NCBI GenBank assembly: GCA_017514045.1
Contig: JAFWLS010000013.1
Span: 1-64,000 of the forward strand
DNA from: Candidatus Saccharimonadota bacterium
GTDB taxonomy: Bacteria; Patescibacteriota; Saccharimonadia; Saccharimonadales; Saccharimonadaceae
Direction of reading: 5' to 3'
Length of the DNA stretch: 64,000 bases
Shown: positions 22,531-46,517 of the stretch, in pieces
Layout of the letters: each line of letters begins with the position of its first letter
Numbering within the stretch: position 1 is the stretch's first letter
Made by a program: the position numbers and the translations under genes
Notes under the pieces: model-generated
What the model was told of the DNA's origin: nothing
What the model saw: the letters and a program-made list of their open reading frames with translations, nothing else
The model's database searches: none

Positions 22531-22559
22531 TTGACACGCTATATCTAGTGTCATAGAAT
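22531..22559 (+). promoter_or_regulatory. nrdDG promoter
   Basis: TTGACA (22531-22536), 17 nt, TAGAAT (22554-22559). The spacer is filled by the first NrdR-like box, so a bound repressor would block RNA polymerase. Confidence 0.8.
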
Positions 22560-22583
22560 AATCATAGACGCTAGATGTAGTGT
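22536..22583 (+). promoter_or_regulatory. Tandem NrdR boxes
   Basis: Two 16-bp imperfect palindromes, ACGCTATATCTAGTGT at 22536-22551 and ACGCTAGATGTAGTGT at 22568-22583. They match the published NrdR-box consensus ACACWATATATWGTGT at 14 and 13 of 16 positions. Their starts are 32 bp apart, three helical turns, which is the usual arrangement for NrdR tetramer binding. Box 1 lies between -35 and -10 and box 2 just after the start site. They lie upstream of an RNR operon, and an NrdR homologue is encoded at 45781-46263. Confidence 0.8.
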
Positions 22584-22662: not shown

Positions 22663-25035
22663 ATGTTCAAAAAAATTATTAAACGAGACGGAAAGATAGT
22701 CGATTTCAAAATTGAAAAGATTATTGATGCCATGACAAAAGCTGGCGTGGCTACTGGCGAGTTCGATCGTGAGCGCGCTAAGGAATTAGCCGCCGAGTTC
22801 GAAACCACCGCCAAAGAAGTTATTAAGTCGCGCATTCCAACTGTCGAACAAGTCCAAGACGCTGTCGAAAAAGTACTCAAAGATGCTGGATTTAAACGCA
22901 CGGCTCGCGCCTACGCAGATTATCGTGCTCAGCGTAGCGATATTCGTATTGCTAAATCTGACCTTATGAATATTTATCGTACCATCGCCATTGCCGATGC
23001 ATCGGAAGACTCAGACGTTAAACGTGGCAATGCTAACGTCGACGGCAACTCAGCCATGGGCAAAATGCTTCAATTCGGCGCCGAAGGATCTAAAGTCTTT
23101 GCCAAGACCTCCCTTATGAAGGCAGAATACGCCTACGCTCACAATAATGGCGATATCCACGTCCACGATCTGGACTTTTACGCTACAGGTACACTTACAT
23201 GCTGCCAAACCGATCCACTTCGACTCTTTAAGAACGGCTTTAACACTGGCCATGGCCATCTTCGCACGCCACAATCTATTGGTTCCTATGCTGCACTTGC
23301 TGCCATTATCCTCCAAGCAAATCAGAACGAGCAACACGGTGGTCAATCTATTCCAAACTTTGACTATGCTATGGCTCCAGGTGTAGATAAGACCTTTCGC
23401 AAAGCTCTCCGACGCAATATCGAAAAATACAACGCCTTTGTCGATAAAAAGAATCGAGTCGATATCCAAATTGGTGACTATATCGAATTCGGTGACGACG
23501 CTAAGCTTTCCCGCATGAAAGTTCCTAAAGCCGTGATCAAAGCATCTGTCGAAGATACTGAAAGTCAGACAGAGCAGGCGATGGAAGGCTTCATTCACAA
23601 CCTTAATACTATGCACTCTCGTGCTGGCGCTCAAGTTCCATTTACCTCAATTAATTTCGGTACCGACACTTCTCCAGCCGGTCGCCTCGTCTCCAAGATG
23701 CTTCTTGAAGCCACCGATCATGGTTTAGGCAAGGGCGAAACGCCAATCTTCCCGATCTCTATCTTTAAAGTCAAAGAAGGCATCAACTATAATCCAGAAG
23801 ACCCAAACTACGATCTATTCAAACGCAGTATGGAAGTATCTGCCAAGCGCCTATTCCCGAACTTCTGTTTTGTGGATGCCCCGTACAACCTTAAATACTA
23901 CAAACCAGGCGACTATCGCACGGAAATCGCAACTATGGGATGCCGAACCCGTGTTTTCGCCTCCGTATTTCCAGAATCCGACGGTATTGTAACTGGCCGT
24001 GGTAACCTTTCCTTCACGACTGTGAATCTCGTCCGTCTCGGTATCAAGCATGGCATCGCAACTGGCGAACGCGATGAGGCCGACTGGACAGCCTTCTTTG
24101 CTGACCTAGACCACGTTATGGATCTTTGTGAAGGTGAGCTATATGAACGCTTTGAATTCCAGGCTAATCAGCACGTACGTAACTTCCCATTCCTCATGGG
24201 CCAAGGTAACTGGTTTGGCTCAGAAAAGTTATCGCCAAACGACACACTCCGTGACGTTATTAAACATGGTACGCTTTCGATTGGCTTCATTGGCCTCGCC
24301 GAAACGCTCGTTGCTATGACTGGTAAACACCATGGCGAGGACGAAACGGCGCGCGAACTTGGTCTCGACATCATTTCGCATATGCGCGAAAGATGTGATG
24401 AATACTCTAAAAAGCATCACCTTAACTTCTCGCTACTTGCAACTCCAGCCGAAGGCTTGGCTGGTCGCTTCACCAAAATGGATCGCAAAGAATATGGCGA
24501 GCTTGCAGGTGTTACCGACCGCGAATACTACACAAACTCCTTCCACGTTCCTGTATATTACCCAATTTCGGCTTTTGACAAAATCGAGATTGAAGCCCCA
24601 TATCACGAATTATGCAACGCCGGCCACATCTCATACATTGAACTAGACGGCGACCCCACACAGAATATCGAAGCATTCGAGGCCGTCATTCGTAAAATGC
24701 ACGATTGCGGTATCGGATACGGCTCCGTTAATCATCCGGTCGATCGCGATCCAGTGTGTGGATTCTCGGGCATAATATCTGGCCACACATGTCCATCTTG
24801 TGGCCGCGAAGAAGGCGATATGCCATTCGAACGTCTTCGCCGTATTACTGGGTATTTAGTAGGTACGCTTGACCGCTGGAATGACGGGAAAAAAGCCGAA
24901 GAGCACGATCGTGTTAAGCATAACGTCGACTGTGGCTGTGCTCCATCTAATACTGAAGGTGTCTACACCGTCGAAGAAAAGAACGAGCGCGAAGCTGAAA
25001 AGATGAGTGCCGATAAAGCGTTGGGAAAAGAATAA
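22663..25035 (+). CDS. nrdD: Anaerobic (class III) ribonucleoside-triphosphate reductase
   Basis: A 790-residue class III RNR that makes dNTPs using a glycyl radical under anaerobic conditions. It starts with an ATP-cone allosteric domain (residues 1-95: KKIIKRDGKIVDFKIEKI). The core catalytic barrel follows. The C-terminal zinc site has four Cys (VCGFSG and TCPSCGREEG), then the glycyl-radical loop RRITGYLVGTLDRWN with G730 as the radical residue; YLV replaces the more common YLG. The start is set by AAGGAGG 10 nt upstream. Control by the NrdR-like boxes is expected. The activase nrdG follows 1 nt after the stop. No aerobic RNR is in the window. Confidence 0.96.
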   Translation: MFKKIIKRDGKIVDFKIEKIIDAMTKAGVATGEFDRERAKELAAEFETTAKEVIKSRIPTVEQVQDAVEKVLKDAGFKRTARAYADYRAQRSDIRIAKSDLMNIYRTIAIADASEDSDVKRGNANVDGNSAMGKMLQFGAEGSKVFAKTSLMKAEYAYAHNNGDIHVHDLDFYATGTLTCCQTDPLRLFKNGFNTGHGHLRTPQSIGSYAALAAIILQANQNEQHGGQSIPNFDYAMAPGVDKTFRKALRRNIEKYNAFVDKKNRVDIQIGDYIEFGDDAKLSRMKVPKAVIKASVEDTESQTEQAMEGFIHNLNTMHSRAGAQVPFTSINFGTDTSPAGRLVSKMLLEATDHGLGKGETPIFPISIFKVKEGINYNPEDPNYDLFKRSMEVSAKRLFPNFCFVDAPYNLKYYKPGDYRTEIATMGCRTRVFASVFPESDGIVTGRGNLSFTTVNLVRLGIKHGIATGERDEADWTAFFADLDHVMDLCEGELYERFEFQANQHVRNFPFLMGQGNWFGSEKLSPNDTLRDVIKHGTLSIGFIGLAETLVAMTGKHHGEDETARELGLDIISHMRERCDEYSKKHHLNFSLLATPAEGLAGRFTKMDRKEYGELAGVTDREYYTNSFHVPVYYPISAFDKIEIEAPYHELCNAGHISYIELDGDPTQNIEAFEAVIRKMHDCGIGYGSVNHPVDRDPVCGFSGIISGHTCPSCGREEGDMPFERLRRITGYLVGTLDRWNDGKKAEEHDRVKHNVDCGCAPSNTEGVYTVEEKNEREAEKMSADKALGKE

Positions 25036-25036
25036 T

Positions 25037-25528
25037 ATGAAAATTCGATTGAGCGGACCTCTAGAACATGATTCAATCGTTAACGGGTACGGCCTCCGGG
25101 CCGTACTCTGGACGCAAGGATGTTTGACACACTGTAAAGGTTGTCAGAATCCTGAGACATGGGATCTAGAAGGTGGGTTTGAAGTAGATACGGAAGAAAT
25201 AAAGGAACGTCTACGGGGTTTTAAGGGTCAAGCTGGTATCACATTCTGCGGCGGCGAACCGTTTCTCCAACCGGAAGCATGTAGAGAAATTGCTGATTTT
25301 TGCCACGAAGAGCTAGGATGGAATGTCTGGAGCTTTTCAGGATACACATATGAACAGATTCAAGCAAAAGGCGGCAAACAACTTGAATTCTTGAAGAGCC
25401 TCGACGCTCTCATTGATGGGCCATTCATTCTAGAACAACGTGATTTGTCGCTAAAGTTTCGTGGAAGTCGTAACCAGCGCCTTCTCCATCTAGAATTAGG
25501 AACTGGTAAAATTTGCAAAATAGAATAA
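25037..25528 (+). CDS. nrdG: Anaerobic RNR-activating radical SAM protein
   Basis: A 163-residue radical SAM activase. It carries the CX3CX2C iron-sulfur motif in GCLTHCKGCQNPETW (C29, C33, C36), the SAM-binding ITFCGGEPFLQP motif and SFSGYTYEQI, and generates the glycyl radical on NrdD. The N-terminal SIVNGYGLRAVLWTQGC block is diagnostic. A longer frame begins 30 nt earlier, inside nrdD, but ATG 25037 directly after the nrdD stop gives the family's normal N-terminus. It is co-transcribed with nrdD. Confidence 0.96.
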   Translation: MKIRLSGPLEHDSIVNGYGLRAVLWTQGCLTHCKGCQNPETWDLEGGFEVDTEEIKERLRGFKGQAGITFCGGEPFLQPEACREIADFCHEELGWNVWSFSGYTYEQIQAKGGKQLEFLKSLDALIDGPFILEQRDLSLKFRGSRNQRLLHLELGTGKICKIE

Positions 25529-41258: not shown

Positions 41259-42412
41259 TTTTTCTCGGCCTAGCATCAAATTATACAGCACGTCGTACTT
41301 GGCACCACGCATTCGCGCTTGGCAATAAAAAAGATTACGACTCGCTAGAGCAGGAACTATCGAGAAGGTACAATGCCAACATAGACCAACTGTCCCTTGC
41401 CTTTTCGGGTCGGTCGGCTATATATCTAGCGCTGGAAAGCTTCATTGAATCTGGCAAAATGAACAAGGGTGACCACGTAGCTATCAACAGTTTTACGTGT
41501 CACGCTGTTTTAGAGGCAATTGAGCGTGCTGGTTTAGAACCGGTATACGTTGATCTTGAGAAGACTATTAGCGGACAAATCCTGCCAAATTACTCAGCTG
41601 ATGCCCTCGAAGAAATAGCAAAAAAAGATAAGAAGCTAAAATGCTTCATTTTACAAAATACCTTTGGCTTTGCGGTCGACATCCGTCGCTTCGAAAAAGT
41701 AAAGAAAAACAATAACCTACTTCTACTAGAAGATCTAGCGCACTGCACTGGACGGAAATACCCAGACGGTAGAGAAATCGGCACTGTAGGAGAAGCCACC
41801 TGTCTTTCATTTGGTAAAGGCAAAAGTATTGACACAATCATTGGCGGAGCAGTCGTCTTACGTGATTCGAGTCTTAAATTGCCCGAAGAGTTCGACAAGA
41901 ATACATTAAGGCACAGGAAAGGCGGCGATGTGCCTCGTGCGAGTTGGTATCCGGTTTTCGGAGCCATAGCTAGAGGGCTCGCACATGTCTATCTAGATAA
42001 GCCTTGGCTAGGATTACTCTTAAAGCTTCGCTGGATTGAGCGATCGGCCGACACTAAGCTTCTCGTCGACACTTCAATTGCATATTGGCAAGCTAGGCTA
42101 GCTCTAGAACAATTCAATAGCCTCAAGAATACGGCCCTACGTGAATTCTTCTTGGTGGACAATCGAGACGCCTGTCTTAAAGAGTTAAGGCGGCATGGCT
42201 ACCGATTAGAAGAATCTTGGTACGAAGTACCGGTCGCTCCAGAGCGTTATTACAAATCTGTACATTTTCCGGAAAAACAGAACCCTAACGCTGTTTTCTT
42301 CGCTCAGCACGTAATCAATTTGCCAACATGGTATCATTCGAATCGCAAAAAGAAACAAGTTGCAAAGGCGAAGAAAATTATCAAATTGCACGAGCTAAAA
42401 GGAGGGAGATAA
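41255..42412 (+). CDS. DegT/DnrJ/EryC1-type PLP aminotransferase-like protein
   Basis: A 385-residue fold-type I PLP enzyme resembling DegT/DnrJ/EryC1 sugar aminotransferases. Seen: the N-terminal LALESFIESGKMNKGDHVAI block, the cofactor Asp region LLLLEDLAHCTGRKYPDG, and the presumed PLP Lys in CLSFGKGKSIDTIIGGAVVL. Relatives transfer amino groups to nucleotide-linked sugars for glycans or lipids. Its placement between a Mur-like ligase and FemAB-like proteins suggests work on a cell-envelope sugar or peptide. Translation is coupled to both neighbours (4-nt overlap upstream, TAATG downstream). Confidence 0.8.
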   Translation: MIFLGLASNYTARRTWHHAFALGNKKDYDSLEQELSRRYNANIDQLSLAFSGRSAIYLALESFIESGKMNKGDHVAINSFTCHAVLEAIERAGLEPVYVDLEKTISGQILPNYSADALEEIAKKDKKLKCFILQNTFGFAVDIRRFEKVKKNNNLLLLEDLAHCTGRKYPDGREIGTVGEATCLSFGKGKSIDTIIGGAVVLRDSSLKLPEEFDKNTLRHRKGGDVPRASWYPVFGAIARGLAHVYLDKPWLGLLLKLRWIERSADTKLLVDTSIAYWQARLALEQFNSLKNTALREFFLVDNRDACLKELRRHGYRLEESWYEVPVAPERYYKSVHFPEKQNPNAVFFAQHVINLPTWYHSNRKKKQVAKAKKIIKLHELKGGR

Positions 42413-43416
42413 TGAACGAATCATGGACCAAAATATACCAAGCTTTTCCTGAAGCGAATTTTCTTCAAAGTCCACTTTGGGCTGAGGCAAATCGTTTAAT
42501 GGGCCACAAACTTGTGGTTCGTACATTTGACAACAAGGCTATGTATCTAGGTATCGTCAAAGATGCTAGACGTGGGCGTTATTTAGAGATTCCTGGCGGC
42601 CCACTTGTCAACTGGTCTGATCGAAAAACCCTGAAAATAGTTTTCGAATCAATCATAGAAGAAGCAAGAAAAGAAAAATGCGTTTTCGTACGCTTTAGGC
42701 CACAAATATACAATACGCCCGAGAACGAAAAGCTCGTAATGAAACTCAAGACCGAAATCAAAGGACTTGATCTTCGCTCCGCACCAATGCATCTACACGC
42801 ACAGAATACCATCATCCTAGATCTAAAGAAAACAGAAGAAGAGCTATTAATGTCGATGCGTCGCCAGACGCGTTATGAAGTTCGTCGTAGTGACAAACTA
42901 GAGCTAAAAGTTATAGAAGATACAAGCGAAGAAGCCTTCAAAGAGTTCCATTCTGTTCAAGCTGAAACTGCTAAGAGACAAAACTTTATTCCACCATCCG
43001 AAAAAGAGCTATTCGCTGAACGCGATGCATTCTCACCTGATCGCCTAAAATTGTACAAGGTATTAGACGCAAACGAGAAACCTGTGGCTTATGGATTAGT
43101 TCTAATTTATGGTAAAGAAGCGGAGTATTTCGAAGCAGCTTCTACTGACCTCAACCGCAAGCTGCCAGGAGCCTATGCCTTGCTTTGGCGCGCAATCAAG
43201 GATCTAAAAGCAATGAATATTGAACGTTTTAACCTTTGGGGCATTGCACCACCAGGCGTTGAGCATCATCGCTATTCTGGTGTGACGACCTTCAAGACTG
43301 GATTTGGCGGTGAAATAGTCGAGTTTATCCCGGCCAAAGATATCATAATTAATAAACTAAAATATAAATTCGATGAAATCGTCGAAACAGCCCGTAAGAA
43401 AAAAAGGAATTTGTAG
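42412..43416 (+). CDS. FemAB/FemX-type peptidyltransferase-like protein 1
   Basis: A 334-residue protein with the twin-GNAT FemAB fold. Seen: the N-terminal FLQSPLWAEANRLMG (FemX proteins have xFLQSxxWxxxK), RGRYLEIPGGPLVNW, and the C-terminal NLWGIAPPGVEHHRYSGVTTFKTGFGG. In Gram-positive bacteria FemX/FemA/FemB add amino acids from aminoacyl-tRNA to the Lys of lipid II and so build the peptide bridge. ATG 42412 overlaps the aminotransferase stop. The Gly/Pro-rich substrate loop and the GNAT-like core are retained. It is followed immediately by a paralogue. Confidence 0.88.
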   Translation: MNESWTKIYQAFPEANFLQSPLWAEANRLMGHKLVVRTFDNKAMYLGIVKDARRGRYLEIPGGPLVNWSDRKTLKIVFESIIEEARKEKCVFVRFRPQIYNTPENEKLVMKLKTEIKGLDLRSAPMHLHAQNTIILDLKKTEEELLMSMRRQTRYEVRRSDKLELKVIEDTSEEAFKEFHSVQAETAKRQNFIPPSEKELFAERDAFSPDRLKLYKVLDANEKPVAYGLVLIYGKEAEYFEAASTDLNRKLPGAYALLWRAIKDLKAMNIERFNLWGIAPPGVEHHRYSGVTTFKTGFGGEIVEFIPAKDIIINKLKYKFDEIVETARKKKRNL

Positions 43417-44442
43417 ATGAAAATTGCAATCATTGAAGCTGAAAATCGTGAGCTATGGGACGAGTTTGTTACTAGTCATAAGGAATCAAATTTTCTTCAA
43501 AGCTGGGATTTCTATGAGTTCCATGCATCGCGCGGCAATCAAATTACTAGACGCATCGCTATTAACGAAAAAGGTAATATTATTGGTGCCTATGCTGGTG
43601 TTGTAGAGACCGCCAAACGCGGACGACATCTTGCAATTGCGGGTGGCCCAATCATCGATTGGCACTGTCAAGAATTGGTAGATAAGATATTCGAAGATAT
43701 TAAGAATGAAGGAAAGCGCCTAAAATGCGTTTTTGTTCGCTTACGCCCTCAGTTGGAACTTAGTGAAAAGTCTCTCAAACTCATGAAAGAACACGGCTTT
43801 ATTAAGGCTCCTATGTACCTTTCTGTAGAATATGCGGGCATTCTTAATTTGGAGAAAACCGAGTCCGAGATACTCGCCGGTGCATCGCAAGGATTCCGCC
43901 GTAAACTTCGCAAAGCCGAAAAGAACGATATAGAGATAGAAGTCTCAAACGACCCTAAAGTCATGAAAGATTTCTGCGAATTAGAAGCCAAACACGCGGA
44001 ACGCCAAGGATATGTGCCGTTTTCTAAGAGCTTCTTGACTAAGCAATTCGAAGCATTTGCAAAGAATAATGAAGTTCTCATGTACACAGCCAAAAAAGAT
44101 GGCGAAATATTAGCAATGAATTTCATGATCTTTTATGGTCCAGAGGCGAGCTATCACTACGGCGTGTCAAGTGATTTAGGGACTAAGTATTCCGGTGCGC
44201 CACTCATGCACCTTAAAGCTATGGAAGAAGCTAGAAGAAGAGGGATTAAACGATATAACCTCTGGGGCATTGTCGGTCAAGATGAGACTAGCCACCGTTT
44301 TTATGGCGTCAGCGAATTTAAACGCTCTTTCGGTTGTGAAGAACTAAAATATACCCCGGCACATGATTTCGTCATCAATAAGGCAAAATATAAACTCACA
44401 AAACTCATTGAGACAGCTCGTAAGCGCCATCGTCACGTTTAA
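43417..44442 (+). CDS. FemAB/FemX-type peptidyltransferase-like protein 2
   Basis: A 341-residue paralogue of the gene before it, with no space between them (stop 43414-43416, ATG 43417). Seen: SNFLQSWDFYEFHASRGN, RGRHLAIAGGPIIDW, RKLRKAEKNDIEIEV, and NLWGIVGQDETSHRFYGVSE with the FKRSFGCEE end. The two copies share their plan but differ at many positions, so each may add a different residue, as FemA and FemB do. It ends the envelope operon; no terminator is clear after it. Confidence 0.88.
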   Translation: MKIAIIEAENRELWDEFVTSHKESNFLQSWDFYEFHASRGNQITRRIAINEKGNIIGAYAGVVETAKRGRHLAIAGGPIIDWHCQELVDKIFEDIKNEGKRLKCVFVRLRPQLELSEKSLKLMKEHGFIKAPMYLSVEYAGILNLEKTESEILAGASQGFRRKLRKAEKNDIEIEVSNDPKVMKDFCELEAKHAERQGYVPFSKSFLTKQFEAFAKNNEVLMYTAKKDGEILAMNFMIFYGPEASYHYGVSSDLGTKYSGAPLMHLKAMEEARRRGIKRYNLWGIVGQDETSHRFYGVSEFKRSFGCEELKYTPAHDFVINKAKYKLTKLIETARKRHRHV

Positions 44443-45780: not shown

Positions 45781-46263
45781 ATGAATCACAAATTCAAAAT
45801 TGGCGATTCGAAAGTACTAGAGAGTCGTGAGGCCCTTGACGGCACAATGATACGTCGTCGTCGAGTGACTTCTGATGGCAAATATCGCTTCACTACTTAC
45901 GAGCGCATCGAAATGCCAAGCCTTATGGTAAAAAAACGCAGCGGCGAGCGTGAAGCATTTGATCGTGACAAACTCGTAACTTCAATCCGTCGAAGTGTTG
46001 GCAAATTTCTCAACAGCGAGCTTGAAGTAGAAGAAGTAGTAGAGAAAGCTATGGATATTCTCTATGGCTATGGTACAGAAATGGTGACCAGCGAACAGAT
46101 CGGCGAAGCGGTTTTGGAAGTATTATCTGAGATGAACGAAGTCGCATACGTACGTTACTCTTCAGTATTTCGTAAATTTAAGACATTGGACGAGTTTGAA
46201 GAAATAATTCGAAAACAACGCGAAAAAGCAGCTAGTCGCAAGAAGGGATCTTCATGCGCATAG
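45781..46263 (+). CDS. NrdR-like ATP-cone repressor lacking the zinc-ribbon cysteines
   Basis: A 160-residue protein whose second half is a standard NrdR ATP-cone (LMVKKRSGEREAFDRDKLVT; EQIGEAVLEVLSEMNEVAYV; RYSSVFRKFKTLDEFEE). The first 45 residues align with the NrdR zinc ribbon: DSKVLESREALDGTMIRRRR and RFTTYER are kept, but none of the four zinc-binding Cys remains. The family begins MxCPxC and has RRCxxCxxRFTTYER; here there is MNHKFKIG and RRVTSDGKYRFTTYER. The only Cys is at the C-terminus. It is the only NrdR homologue in the window and NrdR-like boxes precede nrdDG, so it is the best candidate regulator. Whether it still binds DNA is open. It overlaps the next gene by 10 nt. Confidence 0.85.
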   Translation: MNHKFKIGDSKVLESREALDGTMIRRRRVTSDGKYRFTTYERIEMPSLMVKKRSGEREAFDRDKLVTSIRRSVGKFLNSELEVEEVVEKAMDILYGYGTEMVTSEQIGEAVLEVLSEMNEVAYVRYSSVFRKFKTLDEFEEIIRKQREKAASRKKGSSCA

Positions 46264-46517
46264 TAGCCATCTACAAGGAATTCTCAGACCACGCTAGAGA
46301 AATGGAAGAATGGATAGATCAATTCGAACGCCGCAGCGGTAGAACAATCGAGCGTCTTGATCCGGAAAGCATCGACGGCGAATCGTTCTGTGCGCCACGC
46401 GACATAGTCCAATATCCTACAATAGCCGTCGCAGGTGATGACGGCAAGACGTACGAAATGTGGTCTGGTTCGCCTCTTCCGGTTATTGATGAAGTAATGG
46501 GCTATATTACTCGCTAA
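46254..46517 (+). CDS. Small thioredoxin-fold-like protein without CxxC
   Basis: An 87-residue protein. Its plan (MRIVAIYKEFSDHAREMEEW; DIVQYPTIAVAGDDGKTYEM; MWSGSPLPVIDEVMGY) fits a thioredoxin/glutaredoxin fold: beta-alpha, then a cis-Pro-like QYPT, then the ending strands and helix. The usual CxxC is absent; a lone Cys is in ESFCAPRD. It is therefore not an ordinary redox enzyme. It overlaps the nrdR-like gene by 10 nt, so the two are coupled, which hints at a link with ribonucleotide reduction. The fold assignment is by eye. Confidence 0.55.
   Translation: MRIVAIYKEFSDHAREMEEWIDQFERRSGRTIERLDPESIDGESFCAPRDIVQYPTIAVAGDDGKTYEMWSGSPLPVIDEVMGYITR

Follow-up and report, generated by a model that had tools for sequence, protein, structure and literature searches.

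The NrdR encoded at positions 45781-46263 of the window (the whole stretch of 64,000 nucleotides that was analysed) has none of the four zinc-binding cysteines of the zinc ribbon, and all four were lost once, in an old event, in an ancestor within one family of the Saccharibacteria, a large group of very small bacteria living as symbionts. On the comparative sequence evidence below, this protein is most likely a zinc-independent NrdR orthologue, whose ribbon would have turned into a zinc-independent beta-sheet and which would still read paired NrdR boxes as the repressor of ribonucleotide reductase (RNR) genes.

The window nrdR and its DNA-binding head

The features of the gene and the protein were located as follows.
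45781..46263, + strand: nrdR, cysteine-less variant, 160 aa (ORF translation, Pfam and TIGR profiles, PDB sequence matches)
45781..45912, + strand: residues 1-44, which form the DNA-binding head; zinc ligands absent, E-S-R, RRRR and RFTTYER present (alignment to solved NrdRs and relatives)
45799..45804, + strand: I7-G8, near-invariant among cysteine-less heads and variable among zinc-type heads (head alignment)
45874..45879, + strand: D32-G33, the [DE]-G found in place of the second CxxC knuckle in 141/141 (head alignment)
45925..46185, + strand: ATP-cone (PF03477)

The window protein scored 40.7 bits with the NrdR N-terminal domain PF22811 (cut-off 27.2), 54.7 bits with the ATP-cone PF03477 (cut-off 25.8) and 114.5 bits (E 4e-33) with the equivalog TIGR00244, the last being below the cut-off of 124.65. 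Its sequence matches in the PDB were NrdRs exclusively (7p37, 9fzf and 9fxk). The zinc ligands of E. coli NrdR are given as Cys3, 6, 31 and 34 in PMC12176259, and the residues aligned with them are N2, F5, T30 and G33, respectively; the two-CxxC feature is thus absent, and the sole cysteine, C159, lies at the C-terminus outside the zinc positions. The preliminary description, according to which all four ligands are replaced with the ATP-cone, RRRR and RFTTYER kept, was confirmed by this alignment and by the PF03477 score. Its statement that the length is unchanged was slightly off, with the N-terminus 1 residue shorter and the second knuckle 1 residue shorter in 97/141 cysteine-less NrdRs. R16, R25, R27 and R36 correspond to R17, R26, R28 and R37, four DNA-recognition residues of E. 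coli NrdR (PMC12176259), and E14 sits at the position of D15. Glutamate at the D15 position is also present in 34/40 sampled zinc-type heads.

Across the 141 cysteine-less heads aligned, V-x-E-x-R, RRRR and RFTTYE were essentially invariant; the E-S-R, RRRR and RFTTYE motifs are those through which NrdRs of known structure contact DNA. Before strand 1, I was found in 139/141 and G in 137/141, and [DE]-G occupied the second CxxC site throughout; all these positions were variable in zinc-type heads. The I-G before strand 1 and the D-G turn probably now hold the fold of the head without zinc. The window head differed from that of locus L063 by 3 non-synonymous and 23 synonymous changes and from that of L064 by 1 and 21, respectively, given as raw numbers with no ratio because dS was close to saturation. 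Conservation of the head together with the synonymous excess is the pattern to be expected of a working DNA-binding domain.

It is unlikely that the head still binds zinc or another metal weakly through non-cysteine ligands such as the conserved aspartates, in which case the ribbon would be degenerate and not metal-free. In favour of this alternative, position 9 is D in 130/141 and position 32 is acidic (D or E) in 141/141, and Haloferax TFE-alpha with one cysteine retained weak zinc binding (PMC5861453); however, there is no conserved set of four possible ligands, the histidines are variable and D9 is common in zinc-type heads too.

In the first AlphaFold model, for which every sequence in the alignment was cysteine-less, the head was not resolved, and this was counted against a zinc-free fold. 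The second one, for which five zinc-type homologues from viral contigs were added to the alignment, gave head strands at 10-17, 23-30 and 36-42 with a head pLDDT of about 70-87; since it borrows from zinc-type sequences, it indicates compatibility with a three-stranded head, not proof. Its best fold matches were NrdRs over nearly the whole length, with a TM of about 0.5-0.6, as would be expected if the two NrdR domains are hinged.

No second NrdR was found by NrdR profile searches of the genome to which the window belongs (98.6% complete, with 845 kb on 24 contigs), including the second canonical NrdR for which the preliminary description had proposed a search. The PF03477 search recovered only two ATP-cone proteins in this genome, NrdD and the window NrdR.

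Two further observations were made in the vicinity of nrdR. An 87-aa ORF (46254-46517), located between nrdR and the isoleucyl-tRNA synthetase gene, shares 10 bp with the end of nrdR and may be translationally coupled to it. Upstream of ftsZ, two adjacent ORFs (42328-44442; 362 and 341 aa), named FemAB-like from sequence reading, are apparently tandem duplicates.

Spread and origin of the cysteine loss

A total of 181 distinct NrdRs were compared, of which 141 were without any CxxC, 40 had both and none had one. The 141 cysteine-less NrdRs came from about 39 genera of one Saccharibacteria family, for which at least one NrdR was read in most genera, and the 40 zinc-type NrdRs from the same family and the wider phylum. 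The variant is therefore no oddity of a single genome, as which it had been introduced. In the window genus, an NrdR match was obtained in 91/99 genomes and the TIGR00244 cut-off was passed by 5, so that annotation based on this cut-off would miss most NrdRs of the genus. The zinc cysteines were absent in 30/30 genus loci retrieved. Public genomes, of which nearly all were labelled Saccharibacteria and one Candidatus Nanosyncoccus, yielded 80 loci, again without the zinc cysteines. Neither of the two observations named in the preliminary description as refuting it was made, since the genome has no second NrdR and close relatives have no cysteine at the zinc positions.

An error in sequencing or assembly, or a pseudogene in decay, might be suspected on the grounds that the genome is a 24-contig draft and that the relatives are mostly metagenome assemblies. 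This explanation was ruled out with near certainty by the relatives and the substitution pattern, as the trait is common to the 80 loci from independent assemblies, the named Nanosyncoccus genome included, and synonymous changes predominate in an open frame.

For the tree, the DNA-binding head was left out and the ATP-cone part alone was used. The cysteine-less NrdRs formed one clade (SH-aLRT 98), corresponding to one change, which branches from within the zinc-type NrdRs of their family and by which their descent from NrdR is established; the inner branching was poorly resolved because of the few columns.

In other Patescibacteria families, the listed NrdR matches cover the profile from position 1, 2 or 3 onwards, which agrees with the presence of a zinc ribbon. 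The NrdRs read as sequence there, namely those at the loci that the motif could parse, had four cysteines each. An extension of the cysteine loss to other families of the phylum was rejected on these two grounds. Ribosomal protein S14, taken as a probe of zinc thrift, was recovered in copies without the zinc motif in both groups alike.

Paired NrdR boxes and the genes that follow them

The features upstream of and including nrdD in the window were as follows.
22531..22559, + strand: promoter-like element of nrdD, TTGACA (22531-22536), 17 bp, TAGAAT (22554-22559) (sequence reading)
22536..22551, + strand: NrdR box 1, ACGCTATATCTAGTGT, covering the last -35 base and most of the -35/-10 spacer (pattern match)
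22568..22583, + strand: NrdR box 2, ACGCTAGATGTAGTGT, 16 bp past box 1 (pattern match)
22663..25035, + strand: nrdD, the presumed target, encoding a class III ribonucleotide reductase of 790 aa that has an ATP-cone (ORF and profile)
25007..25528, + strand: nrdG-like activase ORF after nrdD, start codon uncertain (ORF reading; named from position and cysteine motif)

The candidate boxes noticed before nrdDG in the preliminary description stood up to shuffling, with 2 box matches observed in the 64-kb window against 0.14 expected. The pair (22536-22583) ends 79 bp before the nrdD start and is the only 0-mismatch spacer-16 pair of the genome; its spacer falls within the range of 14-17 bp at which pairs were bound by all four NrdRs tested in PMC12051234.

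In the window genus, a pair was detected in 26/29 nrdD upstream regions with a score of 17-20 out of 20 (shuffle maxima 14-16), and in 30/30 genus loci when a looser window around the nrdD match start was used; the genus consensus, in outline ACRCTAWATATAGYGT, is the classical NrdR box. Family-wide, a spacer-16 pair was present in 54/151 genomes and the reversed control pattern in one genome. By hand-combined counts, the pair occurred in about 49/119 cysteine-less versus 4/26 zinc-type genomes, all these family counts being lower bounds because spacer-16 patterns miss pairs spaced by 14, 15 or 17 bp. The genes beside the pairs in the cysteine-less genomes read were mostly nrdA-like or nrdD, and one genus had nrdH-like glutaredoxins there. 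For genus g10, two genomes (L163 and L164, pair at 1501-1548 of each locus) were noted in which the pair precedes a glutaredoxin/NrdH-like gene, itself located after serS. In two cysteine-less genera (L148 from G134 and L150 from G137, also at 1501-1548), an NrdR-box-like pair lies directly before pyrG, encoding CTP synthase, a hint that the nucleotide regulon may be wider than RNR.

One member of the family (G153, 98% complete) has apparently lost NrdR, with nrdD present and NrdR undetected. Its nrdD upstream region (L356, G153:C15:148500-149700) had no pair and scored 12/20, under the 95th percentile of the shuffles, and 15 other nrdD upstream regions from genomes with NrdR of either type scored 16-20. 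Another genome with NrdR undetected (G057, 90% complete) still has a box pair, which was counted against zinc-free DNA binding, and therefore G153 is a suggestive natural control only.

The NrdD match ended at residue 725-729, before the glycyl radical motif, in 32/59 genomes of the genus (in one of the 32, G018, the match was split over two contigs). A separate ORF with the glycyl radical motif was found in 31/32 of these genomes versus 9/27 with full-length NrdD (Fisher p 1e-7 from a hand count, indicative only, since congeners are related), and such a gene was also found in a second genus, g11. In the genome of the window, a full NrdD occurs together with the stand-alone protein (147 aa, G000:C21:2093-2533, that is L307:2093-2533). 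The latter ends in the NrdD glycyl-radical motif FERLRRITGYLVGTLERWNDGKRAEE, and its residues 84-116 are matched by the last part of the NRDD model. The stand-alone protein and the short NrdD are candidates for a split class III ribonucleotide reductase, or the former for an NrdD spare part. A similar case is YfiD, which serves pyruvate formate-lyase as a spare part; YfiD equivalents for other glycyl radical enzymes have been suggested, not demonstrated (PMC8683613).

Upstream of the stand-alone gene of this genome (contig 21), an NrdR box pair scored 20/20 with a spacer of 17, and pairs were present upstream of 13/13 stand-alone genes examined (17-20/20), with one box mostly within a TTGACA/TATAAT-like promoter. 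These boxes are independent support for a working NrdR regulon. We lean towards a metal-free fold with I-G/D-G and unchanged DNA specificity that arose once and that, in some genera, governs a split class III RNR.

The preliminary description had left two choices, namely DNA binding without zinc, or a new role with the boxes read by another protein. Zinc-free DNA binding is favoured because the contacts are invariant, synonymous changes are in excess and the boxes are kept where the sole NrdR is cysteine-less. A variant that has given up DNA binding for another role, with an unrelated protein at the boxes, would agree with the loss of all known zinc ligands and with the zinc region of Streptomyces NrdR being described as crucial to DNA binding in PMC4898720, which, like the report there that E. 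coli NrdR is helped by added zinc, was counted against zinc-free binding. It is nevertheless very improbable, as the constraint on the head is strong precisely at the DNA contacts, the genome has no further NrdR-like or free ATP-cone protein and the clade keeps the boxes throughout.

Proposed action and comparison with known systems

For the favoured zinc-independent repressor, one ancestral event stripped away all four ligands, and I-G and D-G would have taken over the holding of the fold. Paired heads would dock on the 16-bp boxes via RRRR, E14/R16 and R36, and the oligomer state would be set by the ATP-cone, as in other NrdRs. With dATP plus ATP, the two boxes three helix turns apart would be bound and RNA polymerase kept from the promoter of nrdD; when ATP is the only nucleotide present, NrdR would let go of the boxes. 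If this is true, the metal thought to hold the NrdR head together would probably be dispensable for the grip on DNA. A natural zinc-free NrdR with unchanged operator sites would offer a clean system for the role of zinc in small DNA-binding ribbons, and the I-G/D-G signature suggests replacement residues testable in E. coli NrdR.

NrdR is portrayed as a zinc-ribbon protein in the available portions of the NrdR literature. A description of a cysteine-less NrdR was not found in those portions, which were openly licensed only and are weak evidence of absence; NrdR together with Patescibacteria, or among the ten best matches for Saccharibacteria or TM7, was likewise not found in openly licensed literature.

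Compared with the NrdRs of E. coli and Streptomyces coelicolor, as presented in PMC12176259 and PMC9110341, the window NrdR shares the ATP-cone, RRRR, RFTT(Y/F)E and the DNA-contact arginines, and RNR genes are likewise preceded by two 16-bp boxes at a distance of about three helix turns. It differs from them in having no zinc cysteines, a new fixed I-G and [DE]-G, a glutamate for D15, which is usual in zinc-type relatives, and a score below the TIGR00244 cut-off. As the two CxxC motifs of the classical protein are absent, it is regarded as a variant of NrdR, descended from NrdR and most likely working alike. The zinc-type NrdRs of the same family, the nearest relatives of the cysteine-less clade in the tree, also have paired boxes before nrdD, and ftsZ adjoins nrdR both in the window and in L156, the only zinc-type locus whose neighbourhood was read for this gene, but these NrdRs retain both CxxC motifs. 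In TFE-alpha of Haloferax volcanii (PMC5861453), a transcription-factor zinc ribbon has likewise lost most of its ligands in one lineage and is still used; however, TFE-alpha is an unrelated protein working with RNA polymerase, in which one cysteine is kept and weak zinc binding was measured.
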